Both the position numbers and the translations under genes were made by a program. Of a stretch of DNA of 64,000 nt, positions 29,444 through 46,750 are shown in pieces (position 1 is the stretch's first letter; each line of letters starts with the position of its first letter). The stretch spans positions 62,001 to 126,000 of the forward strand of contig NZ_JAQSDR010000039.1 in NCBI RefSeq assembly GCF_029946005.1, in the 5' to 3' direction. Under the pieces are notes generated by a model. The model did no database searches. It was not told where the DNA came from and worked only from the letters and a program-made list of their open reading frames with translations. This DNA comes from Aquabacterium sp. Its GTDB lineage: Bacteria > Pseudomonadota > Gammaproteobacteria > Burkholderiales > Burkholderiaceae_C.

Positions 29444-29879
29444 GCTGGTACTTCTAGCGTGGGCTGTATTGTGACAAATTATCCAAATGAGCTGTAAACA
29501 AGTTTTCAGACCTCCAACTTGACACTTCCGGCACTGCAATGGTTAGCACCAGCAATCAGCATGCCCAGACATCAAACGCGGGGAGGCTACAAGGCATGTA
29601 CTGCGCTTGGAAACAGCGCGGTCAATGGTAATTTCTTCGGCAAAAACTGCCAAGAGCCCGTCTGACTCTGCCGCCGCTGGCCGCCATGTGCCGCTGATGC
29701 GGGATGTGGGTCAGATTTCGCAAAGCGACTGAGGCGTGCAGGGCCGCGCGCCAAGATGGGGGGCGAACCAAGTCCAGCTCGGCGCTTCATGTCCGGCGCC
29801 CGGCTTCCATACTGGGTGCGGCTGCAAACCCTGCACGAGCGCATCTGAGCGGCCTGACTCAGGGAGGCAGGCGCCCGCG
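29444..29879. other. 436-base gap between the unknown small gene and the first hybrid kinase
   Basis: The only gap above 300 bases. The first 80 bases are AT-rich for this genome and could hold divergent promoters. A TTGACA occurs at 29519-29524 but has no matching -10 box 15-19 bases downstream. From about 29640 the sequence becomes GC-rich with short open frames in several phases that show no family features. I see no tRNA fold, terminator or insertion-sequence end. Confidence 0.5.
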
Positions 29880-34211
<4,332 letters not shown>

Positions 34212-34216
34212 GCGCC

Positions 34217-34243
34217 TAAATTTCAGTGCTTGGCTGTCGATAA
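34217..34243 (+). promoter_or_regulatory. Putative sigma-28 (FliA) flagellar-class promoter
   Basis: TAAA (34217-34220), exactly 15 bases, then GTCGATAA (34236-34243). This matches the FliA consensus TAAAGTTT-N11-GCCGATAA with one mismatch in the -10 element and correct spacing. Transcription would start near 34250, about 58 bases before the receiver gene at 34308, and could read on through the chemotaxis genes, which follow with only short gaps. Confidence 0.68.
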
Positions 34244-34307
34244 CCAAACAGCCGAGCAGTTTTACGGCAACCCGTACAAGCACCATTGCCAACTCGGAAC
34301 GCCGACC

Positions 34308-34727
34308 ATGAAAAGCTCTGCACCAACTCCTGCCCCTGTGTCCAGCCCACCCACCAGCGCCCTCCTGGTGGATGACGACGATTTCATGCTCGACTTTGTC
34401 GGCGACATGTTGTCTGAGCTGGGTCTGTCCGATATCAAGACCGCCAACAGCGGCATCTCTGGCGCCCAGGTGTTCGACCAATCTGCGGTCAAACCCGAAG
34501 TGGTGCTGTGCGACCTCTGCATGCCAGACTCCGATGGCTTTGAGTTCATGGAGGCACTGGCCGAACGCAAGTACGCGGGCGGCGTGATACTGGTCTCGGG
34601 CATGGACTCTCGCACCCTGAATTCGGCGTCCCTGATGGGGAAATTTCACCGCCTGAAAATCTTGGCAACCATCTCCAAGCCGGTCAACAAGCAGGCCCTG
34701 TCGGAAGCGCTGTCAAAGCTGCGTTGA
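34308..34727 (+). CDS. Single-domain response regulator
   Basis: A 139-residue receiver without an output domain. The acidic pocket is VDDDDF, the phosphoacceptor is D69 in VVLCDLCMPDSDG, and the conserved Lys sits in ISKPVNKQ. A Pro/Ser/Thr-rich stretch of about 18 residues precedes the domain. I place the start at the ATG at 34308, which has a GGAA upstream; a TTG at 34230 would start inside the predicted sigma-28 promoter. It probably relays phosphate from one of the two flanking hybrid kinases. It overlaps the region of the next start codon. Confidence 0.85.
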   Translation: MKSSAPTPAPVSSPPTSALLVDDDDFMLDFVGDMLSELGLSDIKTANSGISGAQVFDQSAVKPEVVLCDLCMPDSDGFEFMEALAERKYAGGVILVSGMDSRTLNSASLMGKFHRLKILATISKPVNKQALSEALSKLR

Positions 34728-34732
34728 GTGTC

Positions 34733-37210
34733 ATGCAACTTGCGAACCACTGCGAGTCGGAGCAGCCGCGACCCGATTCAATGAGTCCGCCGTCCCCTTC
34801 GAAGAGGTTCACCCTGCTGGTGGTGGACGACCACCCTGCCAACATCATGGTGTTGTACCGGGTCCTGGAGACACACTACCGCGTGCTCATGGCCACCGGC
34901 GGCAATCAGGCGCTGGCCATGTGTCGAGACAACCCGCCCGACCTCGTTCTGCTGGACGTGGTGATGCCGGAAGTTGACGGCCACGAAGTCTGCCGTCAAC
35001 TCAAGGCAGATTCGGCCACCAGCGCCATCCCGGTGATTTTTGTCACCGCCAACAACGAACCCTTAGACGAAGCCTACGGCCTCGAACTGGGTGCGGTGGA
35101 TTTCATCGTCAAACCCATCAGCTCCGCGGTGGTGCTGGCACGAGTCAAGACCCACCTTGACCTGGCCCGCTCAAGCGCGCTGCTCGAGGCCACCCTTGAA
35201 GCCACCGCCGAGGGCCTGCTGGTGACTGATCTGACTGGAAAAATCACCGTCATGAACCAGCGCTTCGCGCGCATGTGGAAGGTGCCTCCAGCACTGTGCA
35301 CCAAGACCGATGAGGCGCAGTTTTTTGCATTCATGCATGCACAGGCAGACGACGATCATGTCCTTGCGCGCGAAGGGGGAGACGGCTCGCCTTTGGTCGG
35401 TGGCGGGGAGTACGCCACCATCGCGCTCAAGGACGGGAGCTTCTTCGAGCACTTCGCCACGGCGCTGCACACCAATGGGAAGCTGAGCGGGCGGTTGCAC
35501 AGCTTTCGCGACGTGACTGATCGACGGCGCGCCGTGCAGTCATTGGCCGACTTGAACGCGAGCCTCGAATCGCGCATCCTGGTGCGCACAAGCGAGCTGG
35601 ACCAGGCGCGGCAACTGGCCGAGGCTGCCAGCCAGGCCAAGAGCGACTTCCTGTCAAACATGAGCCACGAGATCCGCACGCCGATGAACGCCGTTCTCGG
35701 CATGGCTTATCTGGCGCTACAGGCCGACCCGAGCCCGCGGCAGCGCGACTATCTGGAAAAAATCAACCAGTCTGGGCAGCACCTGCTGGGCATCATCAAC
35801 GACATCCTCGATTTCTCGAAAATCGAAGCGGGCATGCTTGAGCTTGATCAGGCCGATCTCACGCTGGACGAGGTATTCACCAGCGTTGCCACCCTGCAGG
35901 CCGACAGCGCGCAGAAGAAAGGCCTGCGGCTCAGCTTCGAGATCGCCCCGGGCTTGTCGCGCCCGATGCTCGGCGACGCCTTGCGGTTGCGCCAGATGCT
36001 GATCAACTACGTCAGCAATGCCATCAAGTTCTCGCCTGTCGGCGATATCACCGTGCGCGTCATCAGCCTGAAGCGCGCGCCCACTGGAAGGCTGCTGCGC
36101 TTCGAGGTGCAAGACGCTGGCATCGGCATGAGCGAAGCCGAAATGGCCCCCTTGTTCCAGTCGTTCCAGCAGGCCGATTCTTCGATCACACGCAAGTACG
36201 GCGGTACTGGGCTGGGCCTGGCGATCTGCAAGCAGTTGGCTGAGTTGATGGGTGGTGAGGTCGGCGTGGAAAGCCAGCCTGGAAAGGGCAGCCTGTTCTG
36301 GTTCACGGCCCAATTGGGCTGGTCCGATGAGGTGACAGACAAGACGCCTGCCCCTGTGTCGCCAGCCGAGCTCGAGCGCATTTGCGGCAGCCACATTCTG
36401 GTGGTCGACGATAACCCGTTCAACCGACAGATTGCCAGCGAATTGCTGGAAGCCCGAGGCGCCCGAATGAGCGTGGCCAACGACGGCCAGGAGGCACTTG
36501 ACCTGATGCACCAGCGCAGCTTCGACTGCGTTCTGATGGACATGCAGATGCCGGTGATGGACGGCCTGAAAGCGACGCGGCAGATTCGCGCCACGGCGGA
36601 ACTGGCCGCAACCCGGGTGATCGCGATGACGGCCAATGCCCGCGACGAGGACCGGCACAAGTGCATCGAGGCCGGCATGGATGACTTCATCACCAAGCCG
36701 CTGGTACCTGACAGGCTCTATACCATGGTGGCTCGATGGCTGACACCGCAGGGCGCCCCGGCGCCCGCGCAAGAGGCTGCGTCACCCCAGGCCGAAGCAG
36801 ACCCGACACCGCCCCCACCCGCCGCGCCAGCGTCCATCCCGCCTGCCTACCTGGTCGGCGATCCCGAGGAGATCGACCTGTCGATTCTCTTTGGCAGCGT
36901 GGGCGGCAACCTGGACAAAGTGCGAAAGTTTTCTCTCATGTTCATCAAGACCATGCCGACAACTCTTTCAGAGATCAACGATGCCTTGGCGCGCAAAGAC
37001 CTCGCGACACTGGGCGAGCTGGGGCACCGAGCCAAGTCTTCGGCAGGAACGGTCGGCGCACTGGGCATGGCCCGGCTTTTCCAGGCACTTCAGGCGTTCA
37101 AGAACGGCAGCGACTTGGAGCAAGCGCGCTGCATTGTGGTTAAGTTGGAACCGTTGCTGGCGCGGATCGTCCAGCGGGTCAACGGCGTTTATGGCCGCGA
37201 TCTGGATTGA
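34733..37210 (+). CDS. Soluble hybrid histidine kinase (REC-PAS-HisKA-HATPase-REC-HPt)
   Basis: An 825-residue cytoplasmic kinase with no membrane helix. It has an N-terminal receiver ([15 protein letters not shown]75), a PAS-like segment (about 150-260), a coiled linker, HisKA with H312 in [19 protein letters not shown], HATPase_c with [10 protein letters not shown] and [13 protein letters not shown], a second receiver (D603), a Pro/Ala-rich linker and an HPt with H765 ([18 protein letters not shown]). Start choice between 34733 and the ATG at 34781 is open. The terminal receiver at the front suggests that it is itself controlled by another kinase, perhaps through the preceding gene. Confidence 0.88.
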
Positions 37211-37276: not shown

Positions 37277-38452
37277 ATGATTAAATCATCAACAGGGGAA
37301 ATCACCTCGCTGACCAGTGCGGCACTCGCTGCCCCCTGGCTTCAGCGTGCGGTGCTGTTGTTGTCCACCGCCTGCGCCGCGCTGCCGCTGTTCAGCGGCA
37401 CCGGCGCGCTCGAGATCACCGCGTTCGCCGGTGTGACCGTGTGCAGTGCCTGGGCTTGGTGGCGCGGCGCTGCAGCCGCTCAGCCGCAAGACGCGGCAGA
37501 AACCGCCGCGTGCGCCGATCAGTCCGCCGACAGCGAATTGAAGCCGCTGCTGGAGAGCGTGCTTCCAGTGTGGCTGCACCATGTTGGCGCAGTCAAGGGT
37601 CAGACCGAAGAAGCCGTGACGCAGCTCGTGCTGAGCTTCTCGTCCATCAACAAGCAGTTCAAGGCAGCGGGCTTCATCGGCGCAGGAGATACCGAGGCCA
37701 AGCGTGCAACGATCAGCCTGCTGACCTTGTGCGAGCGCCAACTGCGTCCGGTGGTGTCGGCCATGTCGCACATACTCGATGGCAAGGCCACGCTGGTCAA
37801 CAGTGTCAACAGCCTGGTGACTGCCACCAAGGAGTTGCAGGAAATGGCGACCGAAGTTGGCCTGATCGCGGCCCACACCAACATCCTGGCCATCAATGCC
37901 GCGATCGAGGCCGCACGCGCCGGTGAAAGTGGGCGCGGCTTCGCTGTCATCGCCAAGGAAATACGCGCCCTGTCGCACAACTCGGCCGAAACGGGCAAGC
38001 GCATCACCCAGCGCATGGCGCAGGTTGAATCGATGATGAAAGCTACCGTAGGGGCCGCCGAGCAGGCCACCGAAGATGACCAAGCGGCGATCGACCTGTC
38101 GAGCCGCGTGGTGCAAGACGTGCTCACCCATGTCCGCGCGCTCGGTGAAAACGCCGAAACGATGCTCGCCCAAGGCAACGACATCCGGGCCCAGACCGAA
38201 AACCTGCTGATCAACCTGCAGTTCCAGGACCGGGTCAGCCAGATCATTTCGGTGATTGACAGCGATCTGGTGCGACTTCAACGCACGCTGCAGTCGGGGG
38301 AGGAACCCATGCCCACGCCGCAGCAATGGCTGGCAGACCTGGAGGGTCAGTACACCATGAATGACCAGCGTGCGGGCAGGTGTGCCAGTGCGTCGACCAA
38401 TGGCTCTGCCGCCACGGATGCGCAGGCCGCCGAAGAAATTGAATTCTTTTGA
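37277..38452 (+). CDS. Short MCP-like protein with a CheZ-like phosphatase motif
   Basis: A 391-residue protein. Two hydrophobic segments at the N-terminus (about 22-60) are followed by an MCP signalling hairpin ([20 protein letters not shown] at about 199-218, then [15 protein letters not shown]). No ligand-binding or HAMP domain is visible. After the hairpin the helix [20 protein letters not shown] has D318 and Q322 in the D-x3-Q spacing of the CheZ active site (FQDLTGQ in E. coli). The C-terminus ends in an acidic-aromatic EEIEFF, like a CheY-docking tail. No cheZ is seen in the window and a cheY follows 20 bases later. A CheY-P phosphatase role is an inference. Confidence 0.75.
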
Positions 38453-38472: not shown

Positions 38473-38850
38473 ATGGCAAAGACCATATTGATCGTCGACG
38501 ATTCCGCCAGCCTTCGTGCGGTGGTGAACATTGCCCTGACCGGCGCAGGTTACGAAGTCATCGAAGCCTGCGACGGCCAGGACGCCCTCAACAAGCTTGA
38601 GAAGTCGGCGGGCAAGAAAATCCACCTGATGATCTCGGACGTGAACATGCCCGTCATGGGCGGCATCGAGTTCGTGACCACGGTCAAGCAGAACCCGGCC
38701 TACAAGTTCACGCCGATCGTGATGCTCACCACCGAGGGGCAAGATGCCGCCAAGGACAAGGGCCGCGCCGCTGGCGCCAAGGCCTGGATCATGAAGCCGT
38801 TCAACCCGGCGCAGATGCTCAACGCTGTGTCCAAGCTGATCTTGCCTTGA
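38473..38850 (+). CDS. cheY: CheY-like response regulator
   Basis: A 125-residue single receiver. The acidic residues are in ILIVDDSASLRAVVNIAL, the phosphoacceptor is D56 in LMISDVNMPVMGGIEF, the switch Thr lies in MLTTEGQD and the Lys in IMKPFNPAQML. This is the length and sequence style of CheY proteins encoded with CheA. In motile bacteria CheY-P acts at the flagellar switch; whether it does so here or acts elsewhere is not shown by the sequence. Confidence 0.9.
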   Translation: MAKTILIVDDSASLRAVVNIALTGAGYEVIEACDGQDALNKLEKSAGKKIHLMISDVNMPVMGGIEFVTTVKQNPAYKFTPIVMLTTEGQDAAKDKGRAAGAKAWIMKPFNPAQMLNAVSKLILP

Positions 38851-38944
38851 TGGCGTCCGATCAGCACTTCGAAGTGCCACCATATTCGGCTTTAACGCTG
38901 GGCTGGCGGGTTCAGAATTGAAAGCCAACAGGGCGCCCAGCCCC

Positions 38945-38964
38945 CGCCGAACAAACGTTCGGCG
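38945..38964 (+). promoter_or_regulatory. Hairpin immediately upstream of the STAS gene ribosome binding site
   Basis: An eight-base-pair perfect stem (CGCCGAAC/GTTCGGCG) with loop AAAC ends nine bases before the AAGGAG of the next gene. No T-run follows. A 14-base palindrome GCACTTCGAAGTGC lies at 38864-38877 in the same 133-base gap. Possible roles are mRNA stability, translational control or a protein-binding site; none can be decided from sequence. Confidence 0.4.
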
Positions 38965-38983
38965 CAGAGTTCAAGGAGCCCTC

Positions 38984-39304
38984 ATGGCCAATGCACCTCC
39001 CTCCCCGCCTCCGCTGCCCGCCGAGTTGAGCATCTTCACGGCCACTGAGACGCGGGCGCAGTGGTTGGCCTGGCTGGCCAGCGAATCCAGCGGGCTGACC
39101 AGCACCGCCGAGTTGCCGCCCTTCGATGCCTCTGGCGTCGACACGGTAGATGGCGCCGGCGTGCAACTGCTTCTGGCGCTGCAACGCACGCTTCACGAAC
39201 GCGGACTCACGCTGCAACTGGCCGCCCCTAGCCAAACACTGCGCAATGCCTGCACGGCGCTCGGCGTCGGCGCACTGGTGCTCACCGGAGCCGAACATGA
39301 CTGA
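38984..39304 (+). CDS. STAS domain protein of the chemotaxis operon
   Basis: A 106-residue protein with a STAS fold: a short strand, the FDASGVDTVDGAGVQLLLAL helix cap and a final ACTALGVGALVLTG helix. In SpoIIAA-type anti-anti-sigma factors the loop carries a phosphorylatable Ser (D-S-S-G); here it reads D-G-A-G, so switching by phosphorylation at that site is unlikely. AAGGAG precedes the ATG at 38984; an earlier in-frame start at 38918 lacks such a site. Its stop overlaps the start of cheA. Confidence 0.82.
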   Translation: MANAPPSPPPLPAELSIFTATETRAQWLAWLASESSGLTSTAELPPFDASGVDTVDGAGVQLLLALQRTLHERGLTLQLAAPSQTLRNACTALGVGALVLTGAEHD

Positions 39305-41579
39305 CAGTGACAAGGACTTCATCGCCGACGTGTTGCCCGCCTTCATCAGCGAGGCCCTGGAACAGGTGGTCGGCATTGAGCAACTGCTACTGCAACTGGA
39401 AGACGCGCCAGATGACCGCGAACTTCTCGACGCGCTGTTCCGCTGCGCGCACACCGTCAAGGGATCGGCTGGCATCTTCGGCTTGAACGACGTGGTCGGA
39501 TTCACCCACCATGTCGAAAGCCTGCTTGACCTGCTCCGCGAAGCCAAAATCGTGCTGACGCCTGAGCTGAGCACGTTGCTGCTCCAGTGCAACGACCAAA
39601 TTCACGAGCTGGTCAACGCCGCCAGTGACGGCAGCGCCACGACATCGGAAGCCGCCGAAACGAGCCGCCTGCTGGTGCAACGGCTCCACGCCGCATCGCA
39701 GCATGGGGCCCCGGACCCCGTCTCCGCAGAGGCCGGCGTCGATGCGACACTCGCAACCCCTGCGACCACCGCGACCGGTCTCACCACCAACAGCGAACGC
39801 TGGCACGTCTCGGTGCGCTTCGGGCCCGACACCTTCCGCAACGGCATGGACCCGTTGTCGATCATCAATTACCTGGGCGGCATGGGCCGAATCGCAGCAC
39901 TGGCTTGCGACACCGAGGCCGTGCCGACGCTGGACGCCATCGACCCGGAAACCTGCCACCTCGGCTTCGAGTTCGGCTTCGAGACCAGCGCGCCGCGTGA
40001 CCAGATTGATGCCGCCTTCAGTTTCGTGCGCGATGACATCGTGCTTCAGCTGATCGAACCGGGCGCTGGCGTGGCCAACTTCCTGGCGCTGATCGACTCG
40101 ATGCCGGACTTCCCCCGGTTGGGCGACATCCTGGTGGCCGTGGGCGCCATCAGCCGTACACAATTGGCCCACGGCCTGGCACTGCAAGTTGGCGCTGCGG
40201 CGACCGCAGGCAGCGCACCGCCGCTCGGCGAAATCTTGCAGCAAGACGCCGGGCTCAGCCCGCTGGTCGTGAATGCGGCCCTGAGCAAACAGGCGCAACA
40301 GCGCGGGCGCGATGGTGGCAACACAAACGCGGCGCCGCCCGGCGACGATACGCACTTCATCCGCGTGCAGGCCGATCGGCTCGATTTGGTGATCAACTTG
40401 CTGGGTGAGCTCGTCATCGCTGGCGCCGGTGCCGCCCTGCTGGCCAGGCAGACGCGCCAAAGTTCGCTGATCGAAGCCAACGCACAGATCAGTCGACTCA
40501 TCGAAGACATCCGCAATGGCACGCTGCAACTGCGCATGGTGCCGATCGGTGAAACCTTTGCGCGCTTTCGGCGCGTGGTGCGCGACACTGCAGCCGAGCT
40601 GGGCAAAGACGTTCAGTTCGAAATCCTGGGCGGCGAAACCGAACTCGACAAATCCGTGGTCGAACGCATTGCCGACCCGCTGATGCACCTGGTGCGCAAC
40701 GCGCTCGACCACGGTCTGGAGCTTCCCGCCGAGCGCTTGGCCAATGGCAAAACGGCGCAAGGTAAGTTAACGCTGTCAGCGTGCCACGAGTCTGGCAGCA
40801 TCCTGATCCGCATCATCGACGATGGCCGCGGCATCAACCGCGAGCGCGTGCTGGCACGAGCCTGGGAGCGCGGCCTGGTCGAGAACGGCGTCACACCGCC
40901 CGACGCCGACATCTTGAAGCTCATCTTCGAGGCAGGCTTCTCGACCGCTGAGAAAGTCACCAACCTGAGCGGCCGCGGCGTTGGCATGGACGTGGTCCGG
41001 CGCAACATCGAAGCCTTGCGCGGCACCGTCACGGTCTACAGCGACCCGGGCGAAGGCTCCCGCATCGAGATTCGCTTGCCGCTGACGCTGGCCATCATCG
41101 ACGGCTTCCTGGTCGGTGTGGGTGCGTCGAAATTCATTTTCCCGCTTGAGTCGGTGGTTGAAGTGATCGAGGCGCGCTCGGCCATCAGTGCACCTGATGG
41201 ATTTGGTCGCCGCGTCGTCGAACTGCGTGGCCGGGCACTGCCGGTGCTCGACTTGCGCGCGCTCTACGGCCTGGATTCAGCCGAGCCCGAACGCGTCAGC
41301 GTGGTCGTCATCAAGTCCGGCTCGAAAAGCTACGGCGTGATGGTCGACGTGCTGCTCGGCCAACACCAGACCGTGATCAAACCGCTCGGCCGGATGTTCC
41401 GCAGCCTGCGGGGCATGTCGGGCTCGTCGATCCTTGGCAGCGGTGAGGTCGCACTCATTTTTGATGTCAATTCCCTGTGCAGTCTGGCGGAACAGGCCGC
41501 CGCCGTCCCGGGCCATGCCCCGCCCTCCCCACCCGCACCGCACTGCGCCGCAACCACTTCGCAAGGACAAACCTCATGA
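39297..41579 (+). CDS. cheA: Chemotaxis histidine kinase CheA with an MshEN-like insert
   Basis: A 760-residue kinase. An HPt domain carries H52 ([14 protein letters not shown]). A domain at about 167-255 ([20 protein letters not shown]) takes the place of a classical P2 domain. Residues 274-332 hold two LGxxL...Q units resembling the MshEN c-di-GMP motif. Then come dimerisation ([12 protein letters not shown]-like), HATPase ([13 protein letters not shown] near 464, [14 protein letters not shown]) and a C-terminal CheW-like domain. The ATG at 39297 overlaps the STAS gene by eight bases. An upstream in-frame start at 39150 lies in the STAS gene. It phosphorylates CheY and CheB when driven by the receptor. 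Confidence 0.94.
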
Positions 41580-43768
41580 CCGCCACCAATTCTTCCTGGC
41601 TCGCACGCCTTTTTGCCCGCGCCGAACTTCAGAAAGCCAATGACGCCGTGGAACACGCCACGGCCGAGATGAAAAAACTGGAGTCAGCTCGCAGCGACAC
41701 CGAGGCCACGCTGGCCCAGCTCAAGTCGAGGCTCGACGAGGTTGAATCCGAGCTGAAGGTGCGCACCGACATCATGAACGTCACCAGCATCGTCTCGGAG
41801 GCCGACAAAAAGGGCGACATCGTCACAGTCAACGACAAATTCGTCGAGGTGTCGAAGTACAGCCGCCAGGAGTTGATCGGGCAGCCACACAACACCACGC
41901 GCCACCCGGACATGCCCAAGGAAACGTTCAAGCAACTTTGGTCGACCATTGGGCGCGGTGAGATTTTTCGCGGCGTCATCAAGAACCGCGCCAAGGATGG
42001 CACGCCCTACTACGTGGATGCAGTGGTGGCGCCGATCCTGGGTGAAAACGGCAAGCCGATGAAGTACCTTGGCGTGCGTTACGACATCACCGAGGCTGAA
42101 ATCGAGCGCCAGAACGCGCAAGGCATCCTGGCCGCCATCGACACGTCGTACGCCTACATCGAGTTCAAGCTTGACGGCACCGTCGTGAAGGCCAACGACA
42201 ACTTTCTCAAGACCCTTGGCTACCGGCAGGACGAGGTCGTCGGCAAGCATCACCGCATGTTCGTCGAATCGCAGCAGGCCGCCGGGTCGGCCTACGCGCA
42301 GTTCTGGCGCGACCTGAACGATGGCAAGGCGCAGAACGAGGTGTTCAAACGCATCACCAAGGGCGGTGAGGAAATCTGGATCCAGGCGGTGTATGCCCCC
42401 ATCAAGGACGAAATGGGACGTGTCTTCAAGGTCGTCAAGATCGCCACCGACGTGACCGATCAAGTCAAGGCCGCGAACTTGCTCAAGCAGGCGGTTGAGC
42501 AGGCCCAGCAGGTGACCTCGGCCGCCCGCAACGGCGACCTGTCGCAGCGCATCCCGATGGAAGGCAAGTCCGGCCCGATCCAGTCGCTGTGCTCCGGCGT
42601 CAACTCGCTGATGGAAACCACCGGCGTGATCTTCTCCGATGTCGGCCGGGTATTCGGCGCATTGTCAGCTGGCGATTTGACGCAGCGCATCACCAGCGAC
42701 TATGCCGGCACCTTCGGTCAGGTCAAGGACGACGCCAACGCCACGACCGACAAGCTCGCCGCGATCATCGAGGATGTCGGTCGGGTGTTCGCCGGACTGG
42801 CCTGCGGCGACCTCGGCCAGCGCATCACCCGTGAGGCCGACGGCACCTTCGGACAGGTTAAGGACGACGCCAACATGACCTGCGAGAAGCTCGCCAGCAT
42901 CATTGAAGAAGTACGCGCCGCGGCCGACGCACTGACTGGCGCCGCCAGCCAGGTCAGTGCCACCGCGCAAAGCCTGTCGCAATCGGCCAGCGAGCAGGCA
43001 TCGTCGGTCGAAGAGACCACCGCATCGATCGACCTGATGTCGGCCTCGATTTCACAGAACAGTGACAACGCCAAGGTCACCAACGGCATGGCCACGAAGG
43101 CCAGCAAGGAAGCCGCCGATGGCGGATCGGCCGTGACGCAGACGGTCACCGCGATGAAGCAGATCGCGCAGAAGATCTCAATCGTCGACGACATCGCCTA
43201 CCAGACCAACCTGCTGGCGCTCAACGCCGCCATCGAAGCGGCTCGTGCCGGTGAGCATGGCAAGGGCTTCGCGGTCGTTGCCGCCGAAGTGCGCAAACTG
43301 GCCGAGCGCAGCCAAGAAGCCGCCAAGGAAATTGGTGACCTGGCAGGCAACAGCGTGAGCACTGCCGAGCGCGCAGGCAAGCTGCTCGACGAGATCGTGC
43401 CCTCAATCCAGAAAACCTCTGAGTTGGTGCAAGAGATTGCCGCAGCCTCAAGCGAGCAAAGTCAATCGGTGACACAGATCGGCGGCGCGATGAGCCAGTT
43501 GAGCAAGGCCACGCAGCAGAACGCGTCGGCATCCGAAGAACTGGCAGCGACCTCCGAAGAGTTGTCGGGCCAGGCCGAGCAATTGCAGCAATCGGTGGCC
43601 TTCTTCAACCTGGGCGGCGCCGAGCCGGTGCGCAATGGCAAGCAAGCCGTGGCCTCGGCCTCAGATCGGCGCACCAGCAACTCGCCGATGCGCTCGACAG
43701 TCAAAGCGAGCACATCGGCCTCCAGGGTCGCCGCTACCGGCACCAACGGCAACTTCCGTCCCTATTGA
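41576..43768 (+). CDS. Soluble Aer-type PAS-PAS-HAMP-HAMP chemoreceptor
   Basis: A 730-residue receptor without membrane helices. A coiled start is followed by an Aer-like PAS (about 65-165) whose [17 protein letters not shown] stretch matches the FAD-binding pocket of E. coli Aer. A second PAS (about 180-290), HAMP-type units (two nearly identical 45-residue repeats at about 355-444) and the MCP signalling domain follow, with tip [20 protein letters not shown] near residue 541. The Aer PAS suggests sensing of redox or energy state through FAD. No CheR-tethering pentapeptide is seen at the C-terminus. The start overlaps the cheA stop (ATGA). Confidence 0.92.
42638..42907 (+). repeat. Two tandem 135-base units inside the receptor gene
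   Basis: Units 42638-42772 and 42773-42907 encode closely similar 45-residue segments: both begin DVGRVF and share [18 protein letters not shown] and KLA. Coding in phase keeps the frame. They correspond to repeated HAMP-type signal-relay helices and look like an internal duplication. Confidence 0.85.
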
Positions 43769-43778
43769 GGCAAGCACC

Positions 43779-44306
43779 ATGGCAAACCACCAGAGTGTCG
43801 CCGCAGCGAGTGCCGCGGCAGCCGAAGCACCGGCCCAGTACTTGACCTTCGCACTCGGCGAGGAGGTGTTCGCGATGGACATCCGAACCGTGCGCGAGAT
43901 CATCCAATACGGGCCGATGACCGCGGTACCGCTGATGCCGGACTTCGTGCGAGGGGTCATCAACCTGCGAGGTGCGGTGGTACCGGTCATCGACCTGCAG
44001 TCGCGCTTCGGTCGGCCTCGAGCCACCGTCGACAAGAAGACTTGCATCGTGATATTCGATGCCCTGCGAGAGGGCGAGCGGGTAGAACTCGGGCTGCTGG
44101 TCGACGCGGTCAGCGAAGTCATCGACATCGCCCGTGATCAGATCGAGCCGCCGCCCAACTTCGGCAGTGCGGTGCGCCGCGACTTCATCCAGGGCATGGG
44201 CAAGGTGGGCAACCGCTTCGTCATCATCCTGGAACCCGACAAGGCCTTCGACGTCACCGAGATGGCACAACTTTGCGAAGCCTCGCAAGACTCGGTCGCA
44301 GCTTGA
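43779..44306 (+). CDS. cheW: Chemotaxis coupling protein CheW
   Basis: A 175-residue CheW domain protein. Characteristic parts are YLTFALGEEVFAMDIRTVRE at the start of the fold, VPLMPDFVRGVINLRGAVVP and VIDLQSRFG, then LGLLVDAVSEVIDI. It bridges CheA and receptors. The ATG at 43779 follows a GAGG; the frame upstream to 43635 lies in the receptor gene. The tail after FDVTEMAQL is slightly longer than in E. coli CheW. Confidence 0.94.
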   Translation: MANHQSVAAASAAAAEAPAQYLTFALGEEVFAMDIRTVREIIQYGPMTAVPLMPDFVRGVINLRGAVVPVIDLQSRFGRPRATVDKKTCIVIFDALREGERVELGLLVDAVSEVIDIARDQIEPPPNFGSAVRRDFIQGMGKVGNRFVIILEPDKAFDVTEMAQLCEASQDSVAA

Positions 44307-44357: not shown

Positions 44358-45170
44358 ATGGAAGCCCTGCGCGACGACACCTACCGCAAGATCGCCACGC
44401 TGATGTACGACGCCATCGGGCTGTCGTTCAGCGACAGCAAAAAACCGCTGATCTCGTCCCGGCTGGCGCCGCGCATCCAAAGGTTGGGCATGGACGGCTT
44501 CGAAGATTACTTCGCGCTGATCGCTGGCCAAACCGACGCTGGTGAGTTCCAGATGGCGGTGGACTTGTTGACCACCAACGAGACCTACTTCTTCCGCGAG
44601 CCGGCGCACTACGACCTGCTGGAAGAGGAGATCAACCGAACCCGGCCGCGCACGCTGGCGGTGTGGAGTGCGGCCGCCTCTTTTGGCGACGAGGCCTTCA
44701 GCACAGCCATGCTGCTGGCCGACATGCAGACCCAAGGGCGCATCGGCAACGAGTGGAGCATTCTGGGCACCGACATCAGTGACCGCGTACTGCGCAGCGC
44801 CACCGAGGCCATCTATCCGCAGGACCGGCTGCGCAACGTCTCGCCTGAGCGACTCAAACGCTACTGCCTGCGTGGCGATGCCGAGTCGGAGGGCATGGTT
44901 CAAATACAGAGCAAGTTACGCGAACGCGTGCGCTTCGGTCAGCTCAACCTGTGCCAGGAGATCCAAGGCCTGGGGCCCTTCGACGTGGTGTTCTTGCGCA
45001 ATGTGTTGATCTACTTCGACGTCAAAACCAAGGGCGAGGTGGTTGACCGGGTACTGACCCAGCTGCGCCCGGGGGGGCTTTTTTTCATTGGCACGGCCGA
45101 GGGCCGGGTAGCGTGCAACACGCCTCTGCAAACGGTGATCCCAGGCGCCTTTCGCAAACCGGTGGCCTGA
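44358..45170 (+). CDS. cheR: Chemotaxis protein methyltransferase CheR
   Basis: A 270-residue SAM-dependent methyltransferase that adds methyl groups to receptor glutamates. The N-terminal helical domain contains LTTNETYFFREPAHYDLL and the catalytic domain GTDISDRVLRSATEAIYP and VVFLRNVLIYFD. The SAM loop reads VWSAAASFGDEAFSTAML, where most CheR proteins have a Thr-Gly-Glu-Glu-Pro version, a mild divergence that does not obviously abolish binding. It begins 51 bases after cheW and ends one base before cheD. Confidence 0.93.
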   Translation: MEALRDDTYRKIATLMYDAIGLSFSDSKKPLISSRLAPRIQRLGMDGFEDYFALIAGQTDAGEFQMAVDLLTTNETYFFREPAHYDLLEEEINRTRPRTLAVWSAAASFGDEAFSTAMLLADMQTQGRIGNEWSILGTDISDRVLRSATEAIYPQDRLRNVSPERLKRYCLRGDAESEGMVQIQSKLRERVRFGQLNLCQEIQGLGPFDVVFLRNVLIYFDVKTKGEVVDRVLTQLRPGGLFFIGTAEGRVACNTPLQTVIPGAFRKPVA

Positions 45171-45171
45171 C

Positions 45172-45678
45172 ATGGCCATCAAGGGCGAAAGCCCCCCCGT
45201 CAATGCGTGGGCGGTGCCAGCGACGGTGCATGTGTTGCACCCCGGTGATGTGGTGCTTGCGTGCCGGGGTGACCGGCTCGATACGTTGCTGGGCTCGTGC
45301 GTGGCCATCATTCTCACCGACCCCCGGCGCACCGTGGCGGCGATGTGCCACATCGTGCACTCGGGCACCCCGACGGTGGATGTGAACGATGCCGACACCC
45401 GCCATGCCGAACCGGCCATGGCGGCGATGTTCGCGCTGCTGCGTGGCCGCGGCATCAGCGCGCACTTGTGCGAGGCCTACCTGTTCGGCGGCGGCAACAT
45501 GTTTCCGTCGCTGTTCAAACACACCCATGTCGGCGCGAAAAACGCCGATTGGGCGCTGCAAACGCTGGACGAATTGCGCATCGCGCTGGTCGGCCAAGAC
45601 ATCGGCGGTACCGCCTACCGCCGCATCACCTGGACGGTTGGTCCGCAGGCGCCACAAGTGCGCCTGGGCGAGGCTTGA
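45172..45678 (+). CDS. cheD: Chemoreceptor glutamine deamidase CheD
   Basis: A 168-residue protein with the CheD catalytic pair: Cys in LLGSCVAIILTDP and His in AAMCHIVHSG, plus AYLFGGGNMFPSLF. CheD deamidates receptor glutamines and in some species also binds CheC. No cheC is seen here. It lies between cheR and cheB, as in other clusters of this composition. Confidence 0.93.
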   Translation: MAIKGESPPVNAWAVPATVHVLHPGDVVLACRGDRLDTLLGSCVAIILTDPRRTVAAMCHIVHSGTPTVDVNDADTRHAEPAMAAMFALLRGRGISAHLCEAYLFGGGNMFPSLFKHTHVGAKNADWALQTLDELRIALVGQDIGGTAYRRITWTVGPQAPQVRLGEA

Positions 45679-45688
45679 GGAAAAAAGC

Positions 45689-46750
45689 ATGGCAATCAAG
45701 GTTTATGTGGTGGACGACTCCGCTGTGGTGCGCCAGACACTGATGCACCTGCTTCAGGGTGACCCCGAGATCGAATTGATGGGCAGCGCGCCCAACCCGC
45801 TGATCGCCGCCCCGGTGATCCGCAAGACCCGACCGGACGTGCTGCTGCTGGACATCGAGATGCCGGGCATGGATGGGCTGACCTTCCTGCGGCAGATCAT
45901 GGAGGAGTCGCCCATTCCCACCGTGATCTGCTCGACACTCACCACCACTGGCAGCCAGATCGCACTCGAGGCTCTCGCTGCCGGTGCGGTGGCCGTGGTA
46001 TCGAAGCCCCGGCTGGGTTTGAAGCAGTACCTCGAGGAGTCACGGCGCGAGCTGGTGCAGACGCTGAAAACAGCGGCTCGCTCCCGGCCTCACGCGCCCC
46101 GATCGGCCACCGCGCCCACCCAGGGTGATCGGCCTGCGGCGCCGCGCCCGGCGGTGGTCGGCCTGCACACGCTGTCGGTCAACAAGCCGGTGGTGATCGG
46201 CAGTTCAACCGGCGGCTGCCAAGCGCTGGAACTGATGCTCACCGCCTTGCCGGCCGACAGCCCGGGCATTGCCATCGTGCAGCACATGCCGGAGAAGTTC
46301 ACCGCCATGTATGCGCAACGGCTGGACGGGCTGTGCGCAGTCAACGTGCGCGAAGCACGTGACGGAGATCGCCTCGAACGCGGTGTCGTGCTCATCGCCC
46401 CGGGCGGGCGCCACATGAAGCTGCGCAAGGCGGGAGGCCAGTACTTCGCCTGCGTCGTCGATGGTCCGCCCGTGAACCGCCACACGCCGTCAGTGGACGT
46501 GCTGTTTCGCTCCGCCGCCGAGTGCGCTGGCAAAGACGTGCTGGCCATCATCCTCACCGGCATGGGTGACGACGGCGCGCGCGGCATGAAATTGCTGCAC
46601 GACGGAGGCGCCCGCACGCTCGCTCAGGACGAAGCGAGTTGCGTGGTCTTCGGCATGCCCAAGGAAGCCATCAAACTCGGCGCCGTCGACGAAGTGCTGC
46701 CACTGCAGCGCATGTCGGCAGCGGTGTTGCAGTTCGACGCTCGCGGCTGA
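45689..46750 (+). CDS. cheB: Chemotaxis response regulator and methylesterase CheB
   Basis: A 353-residue two-domain enzyme. The receiver has D55 in LLLDIEMPGMDGLTFL. After a Pro/Arg/Ala-rich linker the methylesterase domain shows the triad: Ser173 in IGSSTGGCQAL, His199 in IVQHMPEKFTAMYAQRLD and Asp295 in LTGMGDDGARGM. CheB removes methyl groups when phosphorylated by CheA. GAGGAAAAAAGC precedes the ATG at 45689. It is the last gene of the chemotaxis run. Confidence 0.95.
   Translation: MAIKVYVVDDSAVVRQTLMHLLQGDPEIELMGSAPNPLIAAPVIRKTRPDVLLLDIEMPGMDGLTFLRQIMEESPIPTVICSTLTTTGSQIALEALAAGAVAVVSKPRLGLKQYLEESRRELVQTLKTAARSRPHAPRSATAPTQGDRPAAPRPAVVGLHTLSVNKPVVIGSSTGGCQALELMLTALPADSPGIAIVQHMPEKFTAMYAQRLDGLCAVNVREARDGDRLERGVVLIAPGGRHMKLRKAGGQYFACVVDGPPVNRHTPSVDVLFRSAAECAGKDVLAIILTGMGDDGARGMKLLHDGGARTLAQDEASCVVFGMPKEAIKLGAVDEVLPLQRMSAAVLQFDARG

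Follow-up and report, generated by a model that had tools for sequence, protein, structure and literature searches.

Does a chemoreceptor-like protein that lacks a sensor act on the receiver encoded beside it? This question is raised by the window, a 64,000-nucleotide stretch of Aquabacterium sp. DNA, in which bp 37277..38452 encode a 391-amino-acid protein (P0001, here called MCPz) that its translation and Pfam matches describe as an McpA-like MCP that has no sensor and bears a D-x3-Q module at its C-terminus; it and all window features located below are on the plus strand. The original prediction suggested that it may be a phosphatase recruited to the receptor array and described it as MCP-like and devoid of a sensory domain. 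The latter agreed with the Pfam result: MCPsignal (PF00015) at residues 172-309 (bp 37790..38203), with its tip near G216, was the only match above cut-off (72.4 bits against a gathering score of 34.6, E 5.4e-20), the others being far below it, and neither a ligand-binding domain nor HAMP was found by Pfam. An addition to the earlier description is a hydrophobic stretch at residues 20-66 (bp 37334..37474), a probable membrane hairpin for which the AlphaFold model predicts helices at residues 20-34, 36-40 and 44-66; the best 19-residue hydropathy was 1.59, borderline for a membrane helix, and MCPz is probably membrane-anchored. The C-terminal module, residues 282-391 (bp 38120..38449), which is also found in standalone proteins, contains a CheZ-like D-x3-Q patch, Q315-F-Q-D318-R-V-S-Q322 (bp 38219..38242), delimited by invariance and periodicity, and ends in the tail E-I-E-F-F (bp 38435..38449), recognised by conservation of the terminal Phe. 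The translation, which reads L314-Q-F-Q-D318-R-V-S-Q322-I-I and ends with AAEEIEFF, bears out both the D-x3-Q arrangement of D318 and Q322 with neighbouring Phe-Gln and the acidic-aromatic tail EEIEFF that had been pointed out. The placement of the motif after the signalling hairpin has to be corrected, since a helix is predicted up to residue 340, so that LQFQDRVSQ (314-322) lies within the C-terminal arm of the hairpin, with D318 about 102 residues past the tip (103 by the measure used on ordinary MCPs) and the linker and EEIEFF tail beyond. The AlphaFold model (pLDDT 77.6, pTM 0.43) is that of a monomer, which cannot reveal a contact with CheY; when it was searched with Foldseek, the top 16 matches were MCPs and CheZ was absent from the best 50 of 483, and a PDB sequence search with P0001 gave 13 matches, every one an MCP-type receptor. 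A plasmid tblastn search at E<=1e-20 gave no match.

As had been stated, a cheY follows directly: the ORF of this putative partner receiver (bp 38473..38850) begins 20 nt downstream of MCPz. Next come a gene whose product we take to be STAS-like (bp 38918..39304), similar ORFs being present at the same place in part of the relatives, cheA (ORF bp 39150..41579, likely start about 39297), the second MCP gene of the cluster (ORF bp 41477..43768, likely start about 41576), cheW (ORF bp 43635..44306, likely start about 43779), cheR (bp 44358..45170), cheD (bp 45172..45678) and cheB (ORF bp 45389..46750, true start further in), giving the order MCPz-cheY-STAS-like-cheA-MCP-cheW-cheR-cheD-cheB; cheA, cheW, cheR, cheD and cheB were named by eye, and the by-eye names are backed by similarity among the relatives. 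The claimed absence of cheZ holds for the window but not for the genome, the sole cheZ match of which (G000:C14:223601-224200, E 1.5e-56) is on another contig than the window cluster. Directly upstream of MCPz, at 29736-37210 on the same strand, two large hybrid-kinase-like ORFs and a receiver-like ORF were seen by eye; they could share the target of MCPz or feed MCPz.

When 61 genomes were searched with the whole protein, 24 had matches, at a total of 30 loci including our own (set A1), the 30-row alignment of which is invariant at Q315, D318, R319, Q322, Y359 and F391 and has Phe at position 316 in 20 rows. To remove bias, a motif-free query (A4) was built from residues 86-285 only; matches at E<=1e-30 were obtained in 68 of the 274 genomes of the class searched, and in all of the 30 loci fetched, window included, F-[QE]-D-x3-Q occupies one and the same position; ten of these loci form a remote group (E about 1e-36), in which the motif reads LQF[EQ]D-x3-Q. 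Combining the 30 sequences of A1 with 29 from the motif-free query (set A6) gave 59 distinct sequences, window included, with Phe at position 316 in 49. The original prediction had named loss of D318 and Q322 in orthologues as evidence against it; both residues, and Q315 and the tip residues as well, are invariant in 59/59, of which 29 were found without the motif. Within columns 86-340 of this alignment, entropy below 0.15 was confined to 13 tip columns and to Q315, D318 and Q322, and these three residues lie at 157, 106 and 157 degrees, respectively, from the hydrophobic face (period 3.5), a periodicity by which they are solvent-facing. Such invariance on the outer face of a helix suggests a contact or active surface. 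The feature is real, conserved and widespread.

The gene order is also widely kept. A cheY lies downstream of MCPz in 27 of the 30 A1 loci, own included (exceptions L012, L014 and L015), and a CheY-like ORF occurs within 200 nt downstream in 121 of 140 loci, the latter being 30 + 80 motif-selected + 30 loci with the window counted twice. The 80 named loci, which include Rhodoferax, Undibacterium, Herbaspirillum, Pseudomonas and Chromobacterium, were selected by motif, and hence their D/Q conservation was excluded as evidence and their gene order used; in 24 of them MCPz is accompanied by a single receiver or hybrid kinase and cheA is absent from the stretch, and in P. viridiflava (L164) the order is MCPz-cheY-cheA-mcp-cheW-cheR. 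At ten remote loci (L192-L201) cheY is absent beside MCPz, and at eight of these the neighbours are similar to HK2 or CheB queries, probably via receiver domains. Within the genus, two CheY homologues, L285 and L286, lack a neighbouring module, and the sequence retrieved around them contains no cheA.

Ordinary MCPs of the same genome, presumably of the Tsr-like class, were used as the control; 22 MCP matches were obtained, of which a script placed 19, the window protein included, so that 18 were compared and 3 remained unplaced. They resemble MCPz in the tip, the coiled-coil hairpin and a D-x3-Q in the C-terminal arm, but have methylation consensus sites (18/18), HAMP (15/18) and, in most cases, sensor domains, all of which MCPz lacks. 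In 17 of the 18 the D-x3-Q is found 92 residues past the tip, in LDQxTQQNAALVEE-like stretches, and HHalign aligns it to D318/Q322 across an 11-residue gap. A D-x3-Q alone, which nearly all ordinary MCPs possess, is therefore unremarkable and of little weight as evidence; what exceeds chance in MCPz is the invariance of the motif. From this position and alignment it could be argued that the motif is the ordinary C-terminal-arm element D-x-x-T-Q, retained for structure or adaptation. We consider this unlikely, one reason being that methylation consensus sites occur in 1 of the 59 MCPz sequences (0/30 in A1, P0001 having none, and 1/29 in A6).

Another reason is that the module exists without the MCP hairpin. 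A profile of residues 282-391, motif included (A2), was searched against 398 genomes of the phylum, and 54 of them gave matches at E<=1e-5, many weak, comprising whole MCPz and standalone proteins. Five of the standalone proteins (L224-L227, L230; ~190-200 aa) combine FQFYD[KR]L[ST]Q with a DDIELF tail, and their surroundings are free of che genes for about 4 kb. Two of these five loci have other two-component-type ORFs nearby; by eye, the neighbours at the five loci look like nitrite-reductase-, peptidase- or tRNA-related genes. Two others (L228, L229; ~155 aa or more) have QFQD[TA]TRQ, a cheY-like ORF directly downstream and cheA in the stretch, to which L229 adds mcp and cheW. The own genome has a standalone protein of 172 aa as well (L290:7600-8115, G000:C6), with LQFQDMATQ and a GSVELF tail, which heads a second cluster, cheY-cheA-cheW-mcp. 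Seven relatives (L287-L289, L297-L300) share the standalone-cheY order and have the D-x3-Q as LQF[QH]D-x3-Q, and among the 150 genomes searched in the order, which include our own, 5 have this type of standalone form (E<=1e-8). Ten standalone loci with che genes were examined (L287-L289, L296-L300, L228, L229), and each has a cheY-like ORF as its next gene. Two sets of standalone sequences (7 and 5) aligned to MCPz residues 244-391 and 276-391 with P 2.8e-14 and 1.3e-10, respectively, and gave no match to ordinary MCP arms (P 0.26 and 0.23), which argues against the motif being an ordinary arm element. These sets were chosen by motif strings, so that D-x3-Q is there by selection and L297-L299 were left out; in L297-L300, found by homology to L290, D-x3-Q is kept in 4/4. 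One module occurring just upstream of cheY, either alone or receptor-borne, is evidence of the gene-fusion type that it acts on the receiver. A module-like stretch, NIDRVSQ ... RYVMEEER, was also seen in long proteins of family f57 (L083, L084, L085, L087, L088, L090 and L091; frames of 797 to 1,536 aa), twice in some frames.

CheZ has AXXFQ beside DXXXQ, as given in the part of the source available to us (PMC7750401). MCPz resembles CheZ (PF04344) in having FQD-x3-Q on a helix, a linker, a C-terminal tail ending in Phe and linkage to cheY; it differs in the ~102 residues between its D and the hairpin tip, in the MCP tip and hydrophobic N-terminus, in the tail (EEIEFF, where CheZ of this genome has the LGF type) and in a partner CheY without K92. 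HHalign of the 59 MCPz sequences with 59 CheZ sequences gave P 2e-4 and a probability of 47% for an alignment of 100 columns in which D pairs with D and Q with Q; narrower sets had given P 0.052 with the motifs in register, addition of the 80 motif-selected sequences gave P 1.3e-3 and 19%, and the pairing was likewise in register for the two standalone sets (P 0.016 and 0.037). Ordinary MCPs had no match to CheZ by HHalign (P 0.14), and this specificity is a further point against the ordinary-element explanation. Neither Pfam nor NCBIfam found CheZ in P0001. At E<=1, Pfam CheZ was matched by 31 of 81 motif-selected sequences, 9/29 of A6 and 3/30 of A1, coiled-coil models matching as often or more in the sets not motif-selected (DUF948 11/29 in A6, BORCS6 12/30 in A1); for the 18 ordinary MCPs, CheZ was absent from the 25 families listed of 69. 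When 150 genomes were searched for CheZ, two of the six sub-cut-off places were module-bearing MCPs (G185/L072, 25.5 bits; G063/L076, 19.8 bits; both below the gathering score of 30.7). The comparison with CheZ proposed in the original prediction gave an in-register pairing, but the statistical similarity is weak (probability 47%) and P0001 has no Pfam match to CheZ; MCPz appears to bear a specific resemblance to CheZ, homology being unproven. MCPz is separated from ordinary MCPs by three properties: the methylation sites, the CheZ profile match and the existence of the module without a receptor.

In E. coli, CheY K92 pairs with the CheZ aspartate. Among the 121 partner receivers, D57 is present in 121, T or S at position 87 in 120 (one gap) and K109 in 118 (three gaps); position 92 is acidic in 103, and the flagellar CheY of the genome has Lys there. 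Lys is common at 94 (68 of 121) and 95 (90 of 121), and it is a matter of speculation whether the Lys partner of the CheZ Asp has shifted to 94/95. A charge swap between R319 and an acidic position 92 was considered as a general rule and rejected, because in the standalone cluster position 92 of CheY is Asp (by eye) and the module has Met after its Asp. The scarcity of K92 would suit a module that binds the neighbouring receiver without dephosphorylating it, and that serves to concentrate, sequester or localise CheY at the array or to connect two arrays; the same gene order and the conserved tail would be expected, and McpA-like receptors, despite being encoded with F7, are described, in the text accessible to us, as joining the F6 array (PMC7184735, PMC9855816). 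Docking alone, however, predicts no invariant i, i+4 Asp-Gln pair in CheZ spacing, and this pair is kept in the standalone versions, so that binding without catalysis is possible but rather doubtful compared with a dephosphorylating module.

The last residue of MCPz is Phe in 59/59 sequences, and the last two are Phe-Phe in 46 (28/30 in A1, 18/29 in A6). The tail was tried as a CheR pentapeptide and this was rejected, the pattern x-[HFYW]-x2-[HFYW] occurring in 0/59. In the 80 named loci the FF tail is present in 62 and absent in 16 of the 24 cheA-less loci and in 2 others; loss of the FF tail accompanies absence of the che cluster (L094, L096, L101, L103 and 12 further loci of L092-L171). In one cluster, CheD (L231:2020-2619 / L295) ends with SNIELF and the module-bearing MCP with PNIELF, a possible common C-terminal docking motif. 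This pair, and the C-terminal CheR tether known in Aer2 from the part of the paper seen (PMC7184735), would fit a tail that tethers CheR, CheB or CheD, not CheY, with the module serving adaptation of neighbouring receptors. Such a role is very unlikely in view of the 59 tails without the pentapeptide pattern, of the McpA tail, which is described in the same partly available source as permitting interaction with none of four CheR proteins (PMC7184735), and of the standalone proteins outside che clusters that bear a similar tail.

Assigned by described features, not by sequence comparison with P. aeruginosa CttP/McpA PA0180, V. cholerae VCA1088 and S. oneidensis SO_2117, MCPz fits well among the McpA-like receptors that these three represent. 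In the portions of the papers available, McpA-like receptors have a transmembrane segment, an F7 cluster with cheY but without cheZ, and a conserved C-terminus without a CheR pentapeptide (PMC7184735, PMC7534058); P0001 has a hydrophobic N-terminal stretch of borderline hydropathy and no ligand-binding domain, is encoded next to a cheZ-less che cluster and combines a conserved C-terminus with absence of the pentapeptide. From similarly partial texts, McpA-like receptors are unassigned or of the 24H class (PMC7184735, PMC7534058, PMC9855816), stage 1 and 2 F7 clusters have cheY while cheZ occurs only in F6 systems (PMC7184735), and the role of the conserved C-terminus is called 'important yet unclear' (PMC7184735). 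The differences are the second pentapeptide position, Val in the literature versus Ile in P0001, and the STAS-like gene of the window cluster. In the literature found, which included few subscription papers, there was neither an MCP with a CheZ-like site nor a phosphatase role proposed for McpA-like receptors. R. sphaeroides CheA3, compared by description only, is similar in that a CheY6 phosphatase is built into an array component (PMC2829493, PMC6829392, as far as available), and differs in that CheA, not an MCP, carries the phosphatase. According to the accessible part of one report, deletion of S. oneidensis McpA left swimming unaffected, and overproduction raised swimming, as with other MCPs (PMC9855816). 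CheY1 of the P. syringae F8 cluster did not bind FliM in the text available (PMC11253619), so that such clusters may act on something other than the flagellar motor.

The best single explanation, to which we give a probability of about 50%, is that MCPz docks at the array and there binds the CheY encoded beside it, probably also dephosphorylating it. By its conserved tip, MCPz would be placed in the receptor array; the C-terminal arm and tail would act as a separable module presenting the exposed Gln-x-x-Asp-x3-Gln patch to the CheY-type receiver encoded adjacent to it, and the flexible aromatic tail may dock the phosphorylated receiver. By CheZ-type chemistry, Asp318 would orient and Gln322 position the attacking water, and the signal would be removed at the array in clusters without cheZ. 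The standalone module before cheY, the MCPz-cheY order, the surface position of the residues, the lack of methylation consensus sites and the pairing with CheZ in register favour a receiver-directed CheZ-like module, and to this extent the array-recruited phosphatase of the original prediction is partly supported. Its CheZ part is weakened by the low similarity (probability 47%), the lack of a Pfam CheZ match in P0001, the partner CheYs, most of which have no K92, the D-x3-Q of ordinary MCPs and the true cheZ of the genome, to which the S. oneidensis McpA deletion without a swimming effect (PMC9855816, seen in part) and the five che-less standalone relatives are to be added.

More tentatively, and with somewhat less assurance than for MCPz itself, the module may represent an unnamed, widespread receiver-phosphatase family of ~110-150 residues, consisting of an F-[QE]-D-x3-Q helix, a linker and an aromatic tail, either standalone before cheY or joined to unmethylated MCPs that form arrays. 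F7/F8-type clusters would obtain from it the CheY-P phosphatase that they lack, and this would be the purpose of McpA-like receptors. If so, the module would bear on the role of the C-terminus, the F6 association and the absence of cheZ in F7 clusters, as these are set out in the available part of the literature (PMC7184735). A chemoreceptor-like protein would then act on the output protein, not only on the kinase, and an off-switch may be built into the receptor array.
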